Under the pieces are notes generated by a model. It was not told the origin of the DNA and ran no database searches. It saw only the letters and a program-made list of their open reading frames with translations. Shown piece by piece: positions 1 to 5,242 of a DNA stretch of 5,242 nt (its first letter is position 1; every line of letters begins with the position of its first letter). Source of the DNA: Deltaproteobacteria bacterium RBG_13_61_14. Its GTDB lineage: Bacteria; RBG-13-61-14. The stretch covers positions 1 to 5,242 of the forward strand of contig MGQK01000057.1 of the NCBI GenBank assembly GCA_001797815.1, written 5' to 3'. Both the position numbers and the translations under genes were made by a program.

Positions 1-1389
1 GGAGATGCGCACCTGCCACAGGGCCACGAACTTGGGCCCGCCGCTCGTCACCCGCGCCTTTTCATACGCGGCGGTCAGGTCCAGGTAGCCTTGCGCGGTC
101 TTGCCGGCCTCGATCTGCATGGCCAGGCCGCGAAATTCCTCGGCCAGCTCCTGCAAACGCTGGCGGGAAATGGTGGGAAGGTTAAGCGTGGACTCGTGCA
201 GGAAGAGCGAGGTAGTGTCGGCCACCTGCAGGATTCCTTCTGCTTCGCACCGCTCGTGGATGGGCGTGCCTGGAAAGGGATAGAAAATCGTGACCGTGAT
301 ATGGTGCGGCCGGATCTGGCGATTGATCTCCATGGTCTCGCGGATCTCGGCCGCGGTCTCGGTGGGAAGACCGATCATATTGAAGTCCCAGGTCTCCAGC
401 CCCAGCTCGTCCGCCCATTTGAAAACCCGGATGATCTGCTCGTTGGTCATGTGCCGGTTGAGCACCTCCCGCCGGACCCGCTCCGAGCCGCTCTCCACCC
501 CCACGATCACGGAATAGAGACCGGCCTCCCGCAGGATCCCCAGGGTCTCCCGATCCACCGTTTCCACCCGCAGAAAGATCTGGAAGGGCGTGGTGAAAGC
601 CCCGCGGTAAGCGGCGCAGAACTCCCGCACCCATTTGCGGTTCAGGGTGAAGATCTCGTCCATGAAGATCAGCGACTTGAGGTTCGGGTAACGCCGGTGC
701 AGATCCTCGATCTCCGCCATCACGCTTTCCACCCGGCGCTGGCGGACCAGGTTCTTGGCCCCGCCGGCGAGTTCGGAAAGGACCGAGTTGCAGCAATAGG
801 TGCAGGCATAAGGACAGCCGCGGGAGGCCATCAGCGGCACCTGCCGGTCATTCTCCTGCATCAGCACCTCGTTGTCGAAAAGCTCGCGGTCCACGAAGGG
901 CAGTTGCTCCAGGTCCGCCGGCGGCCGCAACGGGTTTTTCCGGATGGTCCCGTCCGGGAGTCGCCGCCAGAGATTGCGGATCTCCGAAGGATCGCTCCCG
1001 CTCTGGAGCGCCTGCGCGTATTCGAGCAACGGGTATTCCCCTTCCGCGCGGATCAAGTCGTTGAAGACCCGGTCCTTCATGACTTCCTCGGGGGCGATGG
1101 TGGCATGGATGCCGCCGATGAGGATGGGCAGGCCCAGCCGGGACTTGATCGCGGCGCCGTAGCGCCGGGCGAAAGGGTATTGCATGGTGGTGGACGAGAA
1201 AGCGACCAGGTCCGGGCGATAAGCCTGGACCTCCTGGATGAAACTGTCGTCATCGAGCTCGCGGCTGAGATAGATCAGGGAAGTCGGGTGGCCGGCTCGC
1301 TTGAGGGTGGCGGAGATGGAGGCGACGCCGTGCTGGAAGTGGGGAAATTGCAGGGTCTGGATGTCGGGATAGACCAGGAGGACTTTCAT
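1..1389 (-). CDS. B12-binding domain radical SAM protein (3' end outside window)
   Basis: 463 residues are visible, with no stop before the left edge. Residues 1 to about 130 form the Rossmann-like cobalamin-binding domain that precedes the barrel in class B radical SAM proteins: it opens MKVLLVYPD and carries GVASISATLKRAGH (21-34) and GGIHATIAPEEV (92-103). The DxHxxG cobalamin-ligand motif of methionine synthase is not seen, which is usual for this class. The barrel holds RGC192-PYA-C196-TY-C199-CN, the MDE at 243-245, VGVESGSE (296-303), NMIGLPTET (337-345) and PFPGT (371-375). Relatives are methyltransferases, cyclases or other radical enzymes, often unassigned, so the reaction is not known. 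The tail after PFPGT already reaches 92 residues, so an extra C-terminal domain may follow. The ATG at 1389 lies 7 nt after the preceding stop. AAGAGAT (1399-1405) is a plausible ribosome-binding site with 9-nt spacing, and a GAGG only 2 nt away is too close. The gene belongs to the same operon. Confidence 0.92.
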   Translation of the reverse strand, partial: MKVLLVYPDIQTLQFPHFQHGVASISATLKRAGHPTSLIYLSRELDDDSFIQEVQAYRPDLVAFSSTTMQYPFARRYGAAIKSRLGLPILIGGIHATIAPEEVMKDRVFNDLIRAEGEYPLLEYAQALQSGSDPSEIRNLWRRLPDGTIRKNPLRPPADLEQLPFVDRELFDNEVLMQENDRQVPLMASRGCPYACTYCCNSVLSELAGGAKNLVRQRRVESVMAEIEDLHRRYPNLKSLIFMDEIFTLNRKWVREFCAAYRGAFTTPFQIFLRVETVDRETLGILREAGLYSVIVGVESGSERVRREVLNRHMTNEQIIRVFKWADELGLETWDFNMIGLPTETAAEIRETMEINRQIRPHHITVTIFYPFPGTPIHERCEAEGILQVADTTSLFLHESTLNLPTISRQRLQELAEEFRGLAMQIEAGKTAQGYLDLTAAYEKARVTSGGPKFVALWQVRIS

Positions 1390-1396
1390 GGCCTCA

Positions 1397-2431
1397 TTAT
1401 CTCTTTTCAGGTGGTTCTTGTCCATAGATGGCGGGCTCCAGGTAGAGCCCGATGCATTCCGCGCAGGCGGCGGAATTTTCACCGGCCAGGATCTGGCGGC
1501 GGACTTCCGCGTAAGCCGGCTTGGACCAGATGGAGGGCAAAGGTTCCTCGGTCAGGCGACCGAAAGTGAGCGACGGCGTGAAGACCAACTGGCCTGACTT
1601 TCGCATCAGCGACACCGGGTAGGCCATTTGACAGCAGACCGAGACCTCGCCCCCGGCGGTGATAAAAGGCTTGTGCACGTCAAAACCGCCGCAGCCGTGG
1701 CCGCGGAAGCGCCGCACCCGCTCCGGCCCGGCCACGATCAAGCCCGGCTTGGCCTCGGCGCGGGCCTGGGCCAGGCTCTGCTTGAGAAGGGCCGGGTCAA
1801 AGTCGCTCCGGTAATACTCGGTGTAGGTGATCCGGGACAAGTGCGCCTCCGAGAAAACCCCGGCCAGTTGCTGAAAAACCACGCCGTCGAGGCCGAGGGA
1901 CTGCATCAGCCGGACAAACTCGGGCAGTTCATCCAGCGCCTCGCGGCGCAAGAGAAAGAGCGCGAACACCTGGGGCCGGGAAGCGCCCTGGGCCTGGCGA
2001 AAGGAGACCAGGTCACGTAAGTTTTGAAGCAGACGGTTAAAGTCACCGCCCGGTCGAATGCGCTCATAGCTTTCCGGCCGAGCCGCGTCCACGGAAACGC
2101 AGATCACGTCCACCCCCTGCTCGACCACGGCTTCGATCTGCTCGCGCTGGAAGAGCAGGCCATTGGTGGTGAAGGTGAGCCGGCCGGAAAAAGATCGGCG
2201 GATTTGCGCCAGGATTTCAGCGAAGCGGGGGTGGAGCAAAGGCTCGCCCCAGCCGGTCAGGTCCAGGCTCTCCAGTCCGGAAAGGCAGGGCAAGACCGCG
2301 GCCAGGGTCTCGGCCGACATGGCCTGGCTGGGGTAATCGGCCGCGATCGTCCTCCGCACGCAGAGGGGACACTCAAGCTGGCAGAGCGAGCTCAGCTCCA
2401 GGGAAAGCCCGGTCATCCGCTCCGCACTCAT
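1397..2431 (-). CDS. Radical SAM/SPASM domain protein (third of three, GWGEP variant)
   Basis: This is a 344-residue radical SAM enzyme if read from the ATG at 2431. C17-x3-C21-x2-C24 (CQLECPLC) is the SAM-cluster triad. The usual GGEP is replaced by GWGEP (60-64), an accepted variant that keeps the Gly-Glu pair. TTNGLLF (88-94) and CVSVDAARPESYERIR (from 111) follow family patterns. The C-terminal SPASM-type region shows C247-x13-G261-x4-C266 plus C267, then a SIW segment near 300 and C323-x2-C326. The reading frame is open upstream to an ATG at 2560, which would give 387 aa, but that start would overlap the previous gene by 133 bases and the added residues look unrelated to the family. The 2431 start forms the standard ATGA overlap. 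GGAGGGG (2444-2450) lies 12 nt upstream, rather far, so translation probably depends on coupling. A start at 2416 (MTGLSLELS) cannot be excluded. The substrate is unknown. Confidence 0.9.
   Translation of the reverse strand: MSAERMTGLSLELSSLCQLECPLCVRRTIAADYPSQAMSAETLAAVLPCLSGLESLDLTGWGEPLLHPRFAEILAQIRRSFSGRLTFTTNGLLFQREQIEAVVEQGVDVICVSVDAARPESYERIRPGGDFNRLLQNLRDLVSFRQAQGASRPQVFALFLLRREALDELPEFVRLMQSLGLDGVVFQQLAGVFSEAHLSRITYTEYYRSDFDPALLKQSLAQARAEAKPGLIVAGPERVRRFRGHGCGGFDVHKPFITAGGEVSVCCQMAYPVSLMRKSGQLVFTPSLTFGRLTEEPLPSIWSKPAYAEVRRQILAGENSAACAECIGLYLEPAIYGQEPPEKR
2428..2431 (-). promoter_or_regulatory. ATGA stop/start overlap coupling the second and third SPASM genes
   Basis: On the minus strand the four bases ATGA hold both the start codon of the third SPASM gene and the TGA stop of the second. 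The nearest purine-rich site, GGAGGGG at 2444-2450, is 12 nt away, so terminating ribosomes probably re-initiate here. Confidence 0.75.
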
Positions 2432-3483
2432 GGCCCCCAGCCGCCCCTCCGCCACTCGCTCCAAGTCAGGGAATCGCCCAGGGAGCAGCCGAGCTGGCAG
2501 GTCGGACAATGCTCGGTAACGATCCGCCGGCGCAGCGCCTCCATTTCCTGGCTCCGCCACAGCTCTTCCAGGTCCCGACCCTTGACATTGACCGGATAGA
2601 TATTGGAGCAGGTGGGGCAGGGGAGAAAAGTCCCGTCCGGTTCCAGGTTCACCGTGCTCCAGAGCGTGAGGCAGCGCCGGTCGCGGGGCTCACCCCGCAG
2701 CATCCGCGCGATCTGGCGGTAGTGATCGCAGAGCGCCGCCGAGCTTTGGACCGCCACCTGCTCCAGGAAGGTGGCCGCCGGTTCGACCTGCTCGGGAAGA
2801 AAACGCAGTTCCGCCTCGGATTCGAGGTTGTCAAAAATTTGGTCGGTGATGACCACGATGTTGAAGGTGATGGAGAGGCCGCGCTCGCGGGCGAACGCGA
2901 GCAAGCGGGGCAGCTCGGCCACGTTGGCCGGCTGGATTACGCAGTTGAGCCCGGCCTCGATCCGGTGTCCGGGATAATCGTGCCGGAGTTCCTGGATCGC
3001 GTCCAGGGTGGCGAGCACTCCGGCCTGGGCGCCGGGGATGCCGCGCACCTGGTCGTGGACCTCGCCGGCGCTGTCGAGGGAGAGGTGGATGAAGAGGCCG
3101 TGGCGGGCCGGGTCCAGCACGTCGAGGAGGTTCACGACCTGCTGGATGACCCGCTGGGTGCGGATGCCGTGGGTGGCGAGACCCAGGGTCGCGAGCGAAG
3201 GCATGGAGGCGATCATGACCGCGGCGACCGCGGCCAGGTCCTGGCGCAGGGTGGGTTCGCCTCCGGTCAGCCAGGCCGTGCGCACCGCGCCGAAAAAGGG
3301 GTTGGAAAAGATCAGCCGCAACTCCTCGGGCGGAAGCTCTTCCGGATGCTCGCCCCGCCAGATGCCGCAGTGGATACACCGGGAATCACAGCGGCGGGTC
3401 ACGTTGTAACAGAACCAGCGCGGCCGGGGGGTGAAGAGCCGGCCGGCGCCGTAATACCATAACAGCCGTTGCCAATTATTCAT
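2428..3483 (-). CDS. Radical SAM/SPASM domain protein (second of three, distinct subgroup)
   Basis: This is a 351-residue radical SAM enzyme with C32-x3-C36-x2-C39 (RRCDSRCIHCGIW) for the SAM-cleaving cluster and LTGGEP at 72-77. The barrel contains HLSLDSAGEVHDQVRG near 133-148, a form common in radical SAM proteins that begin with a PRP-x-aromatic stretch. The C-terminal region keeps the first half of SPASM exactly (C271-x12-G284-x4-C289) and adds C292. Its second half is C326-x2-C329-x3-C333, shorter than the classic CxxCx5C arrangement and unlike the two sister genes. The start at 3483 is preferred over the in-frame ATG at 3513: GAGGT (3489-3493) lies 5 nt upstream of it, and it gives an 8-nt overlap with the previous gene instead of 38 nt. 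The 3513 codon has no recognisable ribosome-binding site. The final CCATGA carries the next gene's start. The substrate is unknown. The TRRCDSRC opening and GGEPTLR form differ enough from the flanking genes to argue against recent duplication. Confidence 0.91.
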   Translation of the reverse strand: MNNWQRLLWYYGAGRLFTPRPRWFCYNVTRRCDSRCIHCGIWRGEHPEELPPEELRLIFSNPFFGAVRTAWLTGGEPTLRQDLAAVAAVMIASMPSLATLGLATHGIRTQRVIQQVVNLLDVLDPARHGLFIHLSLDSAGEVHDQVRGIPGAQAGVLATLDAIQELRHDYPGHRIEAGLNCVIQPANVAELPRLLAFARERGLSITFNIVVITDQIFDNLESEAELRFLPEQVEPAATFLEQVAVQSSAALCDHYRQIARMLRGEPRDRRCLTLWSTVNLEPDGTFLPCPTCSNIYPVNVKGRDLEELWRSQEMEALRRRIVTEHCPTCQLGCSLGDSLTWSEWRRGGWGP

Positions 3484-4579
3484 GCAAGACCTCGTGAAAA
3501 GTGCGGTTTTCATAAAGGTAACCGCATTCCGCGCACGCGCACAAGGGCGGCGGGCCCTCGGCTTGGATGCGGAGCAGGCGGCCGCGATAGCCCTGGTAGC
3601 GCGGGCCGCGCCAGATTTCCGGGAACGATTGTTGGGTGAGGTTGCCCATCAGCTCCTCGCAGTTGCAGCAGGGCCGGACGTCGCCGTTGGGCCAGACCAT
3701 AGTGAAAGTGTAACCTGAATAACAAGGGATCTTGGAGTAGAGATCGTCGTGGCGCAGCCGGCCCTGAAAGCGGGCATCGCCGCCGAAGCCGAGAAAGAGC
3801 CGGCGTTCGCGGGCACGGTCCTGGAGCGCGTCCACTTCCTCCTGGAACTTCCCGAATTCAGCCGCGCTGAGAGTGAGCGCTTCATTGGAGGCCGGGCCGT
3901 CGAAGCGGATTTCCATCAAGGGAATGAAGGTCAAGGCGTTCGCGCCCGCTTGTCGGCAAAGCTCGAAGAGCGGCTGGACCTCGCCCGCGCTCCGGCGGGT
4001 GAGCACCGCGGTGACCGAGATCAAAGGCAGCGGACTTTGCGCCTTGTTTTTTTCCTCGGCCACCGCTTGGATGCCCCGGACAATGGCCGGGAAATCGCCG
4101 GCGCCGGCGGCGGGGTTTAATTCCTGATAATTCTGCTCGGTCCCGGCATTGATGCTGACCGAGAGCCGCGCCAGGCCGACCCTGGCCAGGACCGGGGCGA
4201 ATTTTTCGAGCAGGATGCCGTTGGTGACGAGCGTGGTCTCCACCTGGGGGAAACTCTGGCGCAGGCCGAAGAGCAAGGCCAGGAGCGGCCGGTAGAGCAA
4301 AGGCTCGCCGCCGGTGATGTGGACCCGGCGCAGCCCGCCGAGCTGGTAGAGGTCGTCAAAGAGCCGGTCCAAAAGCCCGCCGTGCAGGTCGGTGATGGGC
4401 CCGAGCCAGCGCGGGGCATGGCGCGCCTTGACCTCCGCGCTCGCCGCCAGGAGCGGGCAGAAGACGCAAGCGGCGTTGCAGCGGGTGGTGGGCAGGATCT
4501 GCAGGTCGAGCGGGCCGGTAACCGGCCGGCCTTGTTCCAGAGACTGGCGGAGGATCTGGATCGAGTCGGCGGAGAACAT
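3476..4579 (-). CDS. Radical SAM/SPASM domain protein (first of three)
   Basis: This 367-residue soluble protein is a radical SAM enzyme: C34-x3-C38-x2-C41 would bind the catalytic [4Fe-4S] cluster that cleaves SAM, and TGGEP (89-93) is the SAM-contacting GGE motif. The barrel runs to about residue 225, including VTNGILL near 118 and LSVSINAG near 139. The C-terminal SPASM-type region has C286-x12-G299-x4-C304, followed by C305 and C307, then MGNL, an EIW segment near 321, and a terminal C347, C349, C352 group. These would hold one or two auxiliary clusters. The length is usual for SPASM proteins. The ATG at 4579 is chosen because GGAGG (4587-4591) sits 7 nt upstream and the codon overlaps the preceding stop as TGATG. 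SPASM enzymes modify peptides, sugars and other substrates, so the family assignment is secure but the substrate is not determined. Its sequence is closer to the third SPASM gene (1397-2431) than to the second. Confidence 0.93.
   Translation of the reverse strand: MFSADSIQILRQSLEQGRPVTGPLDLQILPTTRCNAACVFCPLLAASAEVKARHAPRWLGPITDLHGGLLDRLFDDLYQLGGLRRVHITGGEPLLYRPLLALLFGLRQSFPQVETTLVTNGILLEKFAPVLARVGLARLSVSINAGTEQNYQELNPAAGAGDFPAIVRGIQAVAEEKNKAQSPLPLISVTAVLTRRSAGEVQPLFELCRQAGANALTFIPLMEIRFDGPASNEALTLSAAEFGKFQEEVDALQDRARERRLFLGFGGDARFQGRLRHDDLYSKIPCYSGYTFTMVWPNGDVRPCCNCEELMGNLTQQSFPEIWRGPRYQGYRGRLLRIQAEGPPPLCACAECGYLYENRTFHEVLHE
3489..3493 (-). promoter_or_regulatory. Ribosome binding site GAGGT that decides the start of the second SPASM gene
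   Basis: The minus strand reads GAGGT 5 nt upstream of the ATG at 3483, within the end of the preceding gene. The alternative in-frame ATG at 3513 has no such site, so this element is the main reason for the shorter 351-residue protein. Confidence 0.7.
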
Positions 4580-5242
4580 CAGTCGGCCTCCACCAGGATC
4601 GGGTTGGACCAGCCCACGGTGTTGTAATCGGTGGCGGCCGGATCCACGGTCTGCGTGGCCAGCTCGAGCACCAGGCTTTTGCCCGCCCAGGAGCGAAGGT
4701 CGAGGCTAAGGTCATGCCAGCCCCGATCCTCCGGCCGGCCCTTGGGGTCCAGGGTCTTTTCGAACACGGTTTCCAGGCGCTGGGAGTTCCGGCCCAGCCG
4801 GATCGTGAAGACCACGCCGTTGCCGCCGGGCCGGTCATAAACGCCCGGGTGCATGGCCAGGCCGAAGCGGAGCATTGAGGCATTCGGAAGTTGGAGAAGG
4901 TAGCGGATCCGGGAAGGCGGATGCTCCATCAACACCCGGCGCACGTCCTCGCCGATGGTGAAATAGTCCTCGCTCACGTAATGGGGGAGCGGGGTGGCAA
5001 TCTCAGCCTGGGGGAGCAACTCGATCAGGTCGAGCAGGATCTTCTTGCCCTGGAGTTGGCGCTGGAGCCGCTTGCGGTTCTTGCACACGTCGCTCAAATG
5101 GTTGAGCCGGCGGTGCCATTCCGCGATTTCTTTCGGCGGGAACTGGGGCAGGTTGAGCACGCTCTCGGGCACAAAGTAGCCGTCCACCTCGCGGCCGCTG
5201 AGCCAGCCTTTTTCGCGGCAAAGCTCGTAGAGCTGGGTGCCG
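4579..5242 (-). CDS. B12-type radical SAM protein, C-terminal part, with appended jelly-roll-like domain (5' end outside window)
   Basis: Only the last 220 residues are visible; the frame is open to the right edge, so the GTG at 5187 is internal rather than a start. The first visible residues, GTQLYELCREKGWL, match the FPGT-x-[LI]-[YH]-E segment that closes the catalytic barrel of B12-binding radical SAM proteins. The following ESVLNLP matches ESTLNLP in the complete radical SAM domain of the gene at 1-1389, which supports the family call although the CxxxCxxC motif lies outside. Visible residues about 40-75 are charged and probably helical (a linker). Residues about 93-217 look like a beta-sandwich: RRVLMEHPPSRIRY, LRFGLAMHPGVY, GVVFTIRLG, a WHDLSLDL-x-x-WAGK strand pair and a final TVGWSNPILVE. 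From memory this pattern resembles accessory carbohydrate-binding-like domains; the ligand is unknown. No membrane segment is seen. The TGA stop overlaps the next gene's ATG by one base, so the two are coupled. Confidence 0.78.
   Translation of the reverse strand, partial: GTQLYELCREKGWLSGREVDGYFVPESVLNLPQFPPKEIAEWHRRLNHLSDVCKNRKRLQRQLQGKKILLDLIELLPQAEIATPLPHYVSEDYFTIGEDVRRVLMEHPPSRIRYLLQLPNASMLRFGLAMHPGVYDRPGGNGVVFTIRLGRNSQRLETVFEKTLDPKGRPEDRGWHDLSLDLRSWAGKSLVLELATQTVDPAATDYNTVGWSNPILVEAD
4587..4591 (-). promoter_or_regulatory. Ribosome binding site GGAGG of the first SPASM gene
   Basis: The minus strand reads GGAGG here, 7 nt before the ATG at 4579 and inside the final codons of the upstream gene. 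It fixes the start of the downstream gene and, with the TGATG junction, suggests re-initiation by the same ribosomes. Confidence 0.75.

Follow-up and report, generated by a model that had tools for sequence, protein, structure and literature searches.

The five coupled radical S-adenosylmethionine (rSAM) genes that fill a 5,242-nucleotide stretch of DNA from Deltaproteobacteria bacterium RBG_13_61_14 (the window; assembly GCA_001797815.1, contig MGQK01000057.1) are part of a conserved 13-gene operon, counted with downstream genes seen in relatives. The operon probably encodes a pathway for a glycan of the O-antigen or capsule type exported by an ATP-binding cassette (ABC) transporter, whose sugars would be remodeled before export by rSAM enzymes of the B12 and SPASM types. 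An exported glycan is favored because the flanks hold Wzm and Wzt, GT2 and GT4 glycosyltransferases, an acyltransferase, a methyltransferase and domains resembling carbohydrate-binding modules (CBM). The first-pass annotation, which was made from the DNA letters only, left the product open and gave it a natural-product and peptide tone. The flanks point to an exported glycan.

The rSAM genes and their conserved operon

The window occupies the left end of contig C57 (17,388 bases) in a 4.74 Mb genome assembled in 132 contigs. Its left edge coincides with the contig end, while its right edge is only the window limit and the contig continues to 17,388. All coding genes in the window are on the minus strand; long plus-strand open reading frames (e.g. 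1-1569) are antisense frames of GC-rich coding DNA. Matches to Radical_SAM (PF04055) and SPASM (PF13186) exceed the curated Pfam cut-offs in the four SPASM-type proteins of the operon, S1-S4, as do matches to B12-binding (PF02310) and Radical_SAM (PF04055) in B1 and B2. Pfam thus agrees with the first-pass annotation, which read every window gene as an rSAM gene or the tail of one in the order B12, SPASM, SPASM, SPASM, B12. Recomputation of the four junctions from B1 to B2 (1-nt overlap, 8-nt overlap, 4-nt overlap and 7-nt gap) gave values identical to those first reported, and the four CX3CX2C triads noticed at that time were located in S2, S3, S4 and B2. The B1 triad falls outside the window, as does the B1 start at contig position 6339. 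The cysteine pattern of S1-S4 is of the reduced SPASM/twitch type.

The first-pass annotation also called for the contig to be extended and the neighbors listed. Extension revealed Wzm, Wzt, S1, GT2 and a DUF6485 protein upstream, so that the operon order on C57 is Wzm, Wzt, S1, GT2, DUF6485, B1, S2, S3, S4, B2 (Table 1). The uninterrupted rSAM array extends only ~1.1 kb past the right window edge, to the B1 start. Upstream of B1, GT2 and DUF6485 separate the array from one further rSAM gene, S1.

Conservation was examined in three genomes of this poorly sampled phylum (the source genome, G001 and G002), which represent two families. Gene order is kept in 3/3 genomes; the genes therefore do not separate in relatives, an outcome that the first-pass annotation had named as evidence against its proposal of a joint multistep radical pathway. 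In G002 a single contig carries a Wzm fragment, Wzt, S1, GT2, DUF6485, B1, S2, S3, S4 and B2, then a hexapeptide acyltransferase, a methyltransferase and GT4. The glycosyltransferases of the operon are GT2, identified by Pfam, plus GT4 in relatives. In G001 the cluster is split over two contigs and only S3 is lost in the gap. All 10 operon genes of C57 have orthologues at 39-73% identity, with the rSAM genes alone at 39-55% between families. The best match agrees with operon position in 62/63 comparisons, the exception being S3, which is missing from G001. In the tree the rSAM proteins group by operon position into separate clades (99-100% bootstrap) with one-to-one orthologues, and strand, order and overlapping junctions are preserved across families. 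Since all the genes run in one direction, are closely packed and have stayed together as a unit, a joint multistep pathway is a reasonable proposal.

The source genome has further rSAM-dense spots and 84 rSAM matches in total, and such a genome might simply gather rSAM genes into a loose collection that serves no single pathway. The 84 matches were placed randomly among ~4,300 genes (an estimated gene number) in 20,000 draws. A run of five appeared in 0/20,000 draws (expected number ~1e-5). The run of five is real and is not explained by chance. A loose collection is largely refuted by the order, strand and overlaps kept between families at these identities and by the one-to-one orthologues at each position, and we give it almost no weight.

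Table 1. Features of the window and of the adjoining operon genes. The last five rows are in contig numbering (locus L031).
Feature	Position	Strand	Description	Evidence
B2	1..1389	-	B12-binding radical SAM, 463 aa seen, truncated by contig end at base 1	Pfam, triad
S4	1397..2431	-	SPASM/twitch-type radical SAM, 344 aa	Pfam, triad; G002 orthologue 39% identity
S3	2428..3483	-	SPASM/twitch-type radical SAM, 351 aa	Pfam, triad; G002 orthologue 47% identity
S2	3476..4579	-	SPASM/twitch-type radical SAM, 367 aa	Pfam, AlphaFold2 model; orthologues 48% identity
B1 tail	4579..5242	-	C-terminal 220 aa of 586-aa B12-binding radical SAM	Orthologues 47-49% identity
B1 C-terminal accessory domain	4582..4962	-	127 aa modeled, predicted beta-sandwich resembling CBM51	
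DUF6485 protein	6361-6558	-	65 aa, Cys-rich	
GT2	6586-8037	-	Glycosyltransferase	Pfam
S1	8149-9192	-	SPASM rSAM	Pfam
Wzt	9189-10445	-	Wzt with Wzt_C	PF00005+PF14524 above cut-off
Wzm	10459-11256	-	ABC-2 permease	PF01061 above cut-off

A C-terminal domain shared by GT2 and the B12-type proteins

GT2, B1 and the B2 proteins of relatives have in common a C-terminal domain of ~115 residues. The B2 orthologues are ~590-600 aa long, 52-55% identical, and end in this domain; in the source genome the contig end falls just before the corresponding region of B2. The domain has no Pfam match and no match among PDB sequences up to E=1. An AlphaFold2 model of the B1 tail predicts a beta-sandwich (predicted local distance difference test score 84) that aligns with CBM51 (VIA) at Z 10.3 and 2.9 Å over 109 residues with 16% identity, and sugar-recognizing domains are among the top Foldseek matches of the model. 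Within the three phylum genomes the domain occurs in the operon proteins GT2, B1 and B2, plus weakly in one sulfatase. In Omnitrophota it is found in a PMT-like glycosyltransferase, a YfhO protein and sulfatases. The gene for the PMT-like glycosyltransferase, which ends in the CBM-like domain, overlaps a downstream B12-rSAM gene (L104:1-3368, plus strand).

Like the shared domain, several other loci speak for an exported glycan. An unbroken 736-aa protein of Omnitrophota (L039:6180-8390, plus strand) is a fusion of GT2 (residues 15-143) to rSAM and SPASM domains (residues 397-708), and the next gene encodes a B12-rSAM protein. The Elusimicrobia arrays L038 and L040 each include a GT2, S3 groups with an Elusimicrobia SPASM gene that adjoins a GT2, and locus L050 has an rSAM gene inside a lipopolysaccharide-type cluster.

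Candidate chemistry and substrate of the rSAM enzymes

The highest NCBIfam score of both B1 and B2 is to HpnJ (TIGR03471; B2 143 bits, B1 107 bits), and neither reaches the equivalog cut-off of 577.6. Both also match the ladderane-type B12-rSAM family TIGR04072, and their nearest relative among PDB sequences is AprD4. HpnJ and AprD4, the best named relatives by sequence, share the B12-binding plus rSAM architecture of B1 and B2 but lack the extra CBM-like tail, and their partners (HpnI and HpnK, or AprD3) are not in this operon. The substrate of HpnJ is lipid-linked glucosamine (PMC12583986). AprD4, whose substrate is paromamine, counts as a diol dehydratase rather than a methyltransferase, while GenK methylates a sugar carbon (PMC5461906). 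HpnJ and OxsB are non-methylating B12-rSAM enzymes that carry out ring formation or rearrangement (PMC13142503). With methylating (GenK) and non-methylating (HpnJ, OxsB) precedents, both chemistries are therefore open for B1 and B2.

The HpnJ and TIGR04072 matches would also fit rSAM enzymes that make or modify a lipid or a lipid-linked small molecule, with GT2 and the exporter serving a glycolipid instead of a polymer, and HpnJ itself works on a glycolipid. We regard this as unlikely, since the HpnJ scores are so far below the cut-off, Wzt_C and the CBM-like tails imply carbohydrate recognition, and the operon contains no lipid biosynthesis gene in the three genomes.

S2 matches BtrN and BlsE by sequence. 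BtrN, NeoN and BlsE are models for alcohol oxidation, epimerization or decarboxylation by SPASM/twitch rSAM enzymes. Like BtrN, BlsE and DesII, the SPASM proteins of the operon have an rSAM core and a reduced SPASM/twitch cysteine pattern, but identity is only ~15-20%. An AlphaFold2 model of S2 predicts an rSAM plus SPASM fold, which places S2 near BlsE (Z 21.7) and DesII (Z 21.1) and equally near the peptide maturases SkfB (Z 22.4) and SuiB (Z 21.0).

From these relatives and the operon context we infer a scheme in which the glycan would be the rSAM substrate and the steps would take the following order. GT2 and GT4 would contribute to the cytoplasmic assembly of a lipid-linked glycan. Two (probably three) B12-rSAM and four SPASM/twitch-rSAM enzymes would next use 5'-deoxyadenosyl radicals to remodel the sugars of this glycan, the former by C-methylation, deoxygenation or ring rearrangement (compare GenK, AprD4 and HpnJ) and the latter by alcohol oxidation, epimerization or decarboxylation (compare BtrN, NeoN and BlsE). 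The CBM-like tails, if they bind glycan, would keep GT2, B1 and B2 on the same growing chain. The acyltransferase and methyltransferase may supply decorations or a cap. Wzt_C, a domain with precedent for recognizing a chemically modified terminal sugar (PMC9445017), would recognize the finished or capped chain, and Wzm and Wzt would export it. A bolder version of this scheme, which we put forward only tentatively, is that the tail-tethered B12-rSAM and the four SPASM rSAM enzymes make successive radical edits on the polymer itself (C-methylation, deoxygenation, ring rearrangement and epimerization), so that radical chemistry would largely determine the structure of the surface polysaccharide.

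Several observations weigh against an exported glycan as the rSAM substrate. The operon has neither a sugar-nucleotide synthesis gene nor an initiating transferase gene, and the scheme assigns no role to DUF6485, which belongs to the operon unit. For the tail model, reelin ties with CBM51 at the same Z; the CBM51-like beta-sandwich is a common fold and not always sugar-binding, and the predicted fold by itself is no proof that the tail binds sugar. No rSAM gene comes close to any NCBIfam cut-off, and therefore the assignment of a substrate class rests on context. The nearest PDB sequences of S3 and S4 are those of the peptide-acting enzymes SkfB and PqqE, and the modeled fold of S2 does not separate sugar enzymes from peptide maturases.

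Because SPASM proteins often mature peptides, and SkfB gives the best alignment to the S2 model, we considered whether the operon could be a pathway for a ribosomally synthesized and post-translationally modified peptide (RiPP). The SPASM and B12-rSAM enzymes would modify a ribosomal peptide, DUF6485 would be the precursor and the ABC transporter would export the product. DUF6485 is small and Cys-rich, and in 3/3 genomes its gene is placed between those of GT2 and B1. Yet it is 73% conserved over its full length between families, above any operon enzyme, and the family also occurs in unrelated genomes: it is present in 33/149 Elusimicrobiota genomes, where only 1/30 loci has an rSAM gene nearby (within 1.5 kb). 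An rSAM-linked precursor role for DUF6485 was accordingly rejected as the main reading, since it is conserved throughout and usually found away from rSAM genes. It is present as a single copy in each of the three phylum genomes and has no match among PDB sequences up to E=10. It is the sole small open reading frame in the operon, and no convincing precursor gene with a leader and a variable core was found there. S1-S4 and their neighbors have no Pfam match to a RiPP recognition element (RRE) or PqqD, and the S1-S4 triads begin at residues 17-36, so that the 16-35 residues before them leave no room for a fused RRE. Some RiPP systems lack a recognizable RRE. The exporter, a Wzm/Wzt pair in which Wzt has a Wzt_C domain, is not an ABC transporter of the peptidase-containing kind. 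Taken together, these results make a RiPP pathway quite improbable.

The best NCBIfam matches of S1 (TIGR04317, 143.6 bits) and S4 (TIGR04311, 149 bits) raise another alternative, namely that S1 and S4 serve in the maturation of a metalloenzyme (for example a tungsten oxidoreductase) or of its cofactor and only happen to sit in this operon. Both scores are far under cut-offs of 380-400 bits, S4 scores 140.7 bits against TIGR04317 (cut-off 380), and an AOR-type oxidoreductase partner is present in the operon in 0/3 genomes. This alternative is very improbable.

Length of the array, its paralogues and comparison with known loci

The first-pass annotation suspected that the array was longer than the window, and this is supported by S1 upstream and probably by another gene after B2. 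Contig C64 of the source genome begins with the end of a B2-like rSAM gene (B3; 59% identical to B2, residues 295-458), followed by orthologues of the acyltransferase and methyltransferase. Judging from these sequences, B2 was probably duplicated and the run comprises at least six rSAM genes including B3, if C57 and C64 are linked as the gene order suggests. B2 has 33 matches in the source genome, and the highest identities are to the C64 fragment and to B1 (43%). These identities are as expected for local duplicates, and B1, B2 and B3 look like duplicates that arose within the operon. For the SPASM genes, by contrast, a recent origin by tandem duplication is not supported: identity among S1-S4 is at most 29%, and the orthologues of each fall into a separate clade.

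Other rSAM genes of the source genome were also recorded. Elsewhere on C64 (L103:7890-10266), corrinoid-protein-like and uroporphyrinogen-decarboxylase-like genes, as judged from sequence, lie near two more B12-rSAM genes. Three close B12-rSAM paralogues with short tree branches lie near contig ends (G000:C31:1089-3371 and G000:C86:1161-1649; loci L021, L012 and L014) and are probably another array broken by assembly. A further rSAM-dense region has four plus-strand rSAM matches in ~10 kb (G000:C81:89066-99249).

An uninterrupted run of five was first thought unusual. It is not a unique feature, as an Elusimicrobia locus (L040:2005-14706, plus strand) has nine consecutive rSAM genes with 11 rSAM domains, among them two B12-rSAM::SPASM fusions (910 and 975 aa). 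This array is flanked by a GT2 and another SPASM gene on the upstream side and by genes for a GDSL esterase and a sulfatase downstream. The arrays of Elusimicrobia and Omnitrophota metagenome-assembled genomes (L038, L040 and L039) resemble the present operon in their consecutive SPASM and B12 rSAM genes with GT2. They differ in showing no Wzm/Wzt match within the stretches examined and in using B12-rSAM::SPASM or GT2::SPASM fusions, where the present operon has separate genes.

Loci for ABC-dependent O-antigen and capsule synthesis likewise combine Wzm, Wzt with Wzt_C, GT2, GT4, an acyltransferase and a methyltransferase in one operon. What sets the present operon apart is six (probably seven) rSAM genes against two glycosyltransferases. 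A literature search of partial coverage found no rSAM array with polysaccharide export, which is a weak absence. The operon is probably a variant of ABC-exported glycan loci with an unusual rSAM load, in which the run of five is real but not unique.

With clustered rSAM genes, attention goes mostly to peptides. Together with the GT2::SPASM fusion and the CBM-like tails of B12-rSAM proteins, this operon offers a testable case for radical tailoring of exported glycans, and the tail domain and the fusion are sequence handles for finding similar loci. If this reading is true, lineages known mainly from metagenomes would carry unusual surface sugars.

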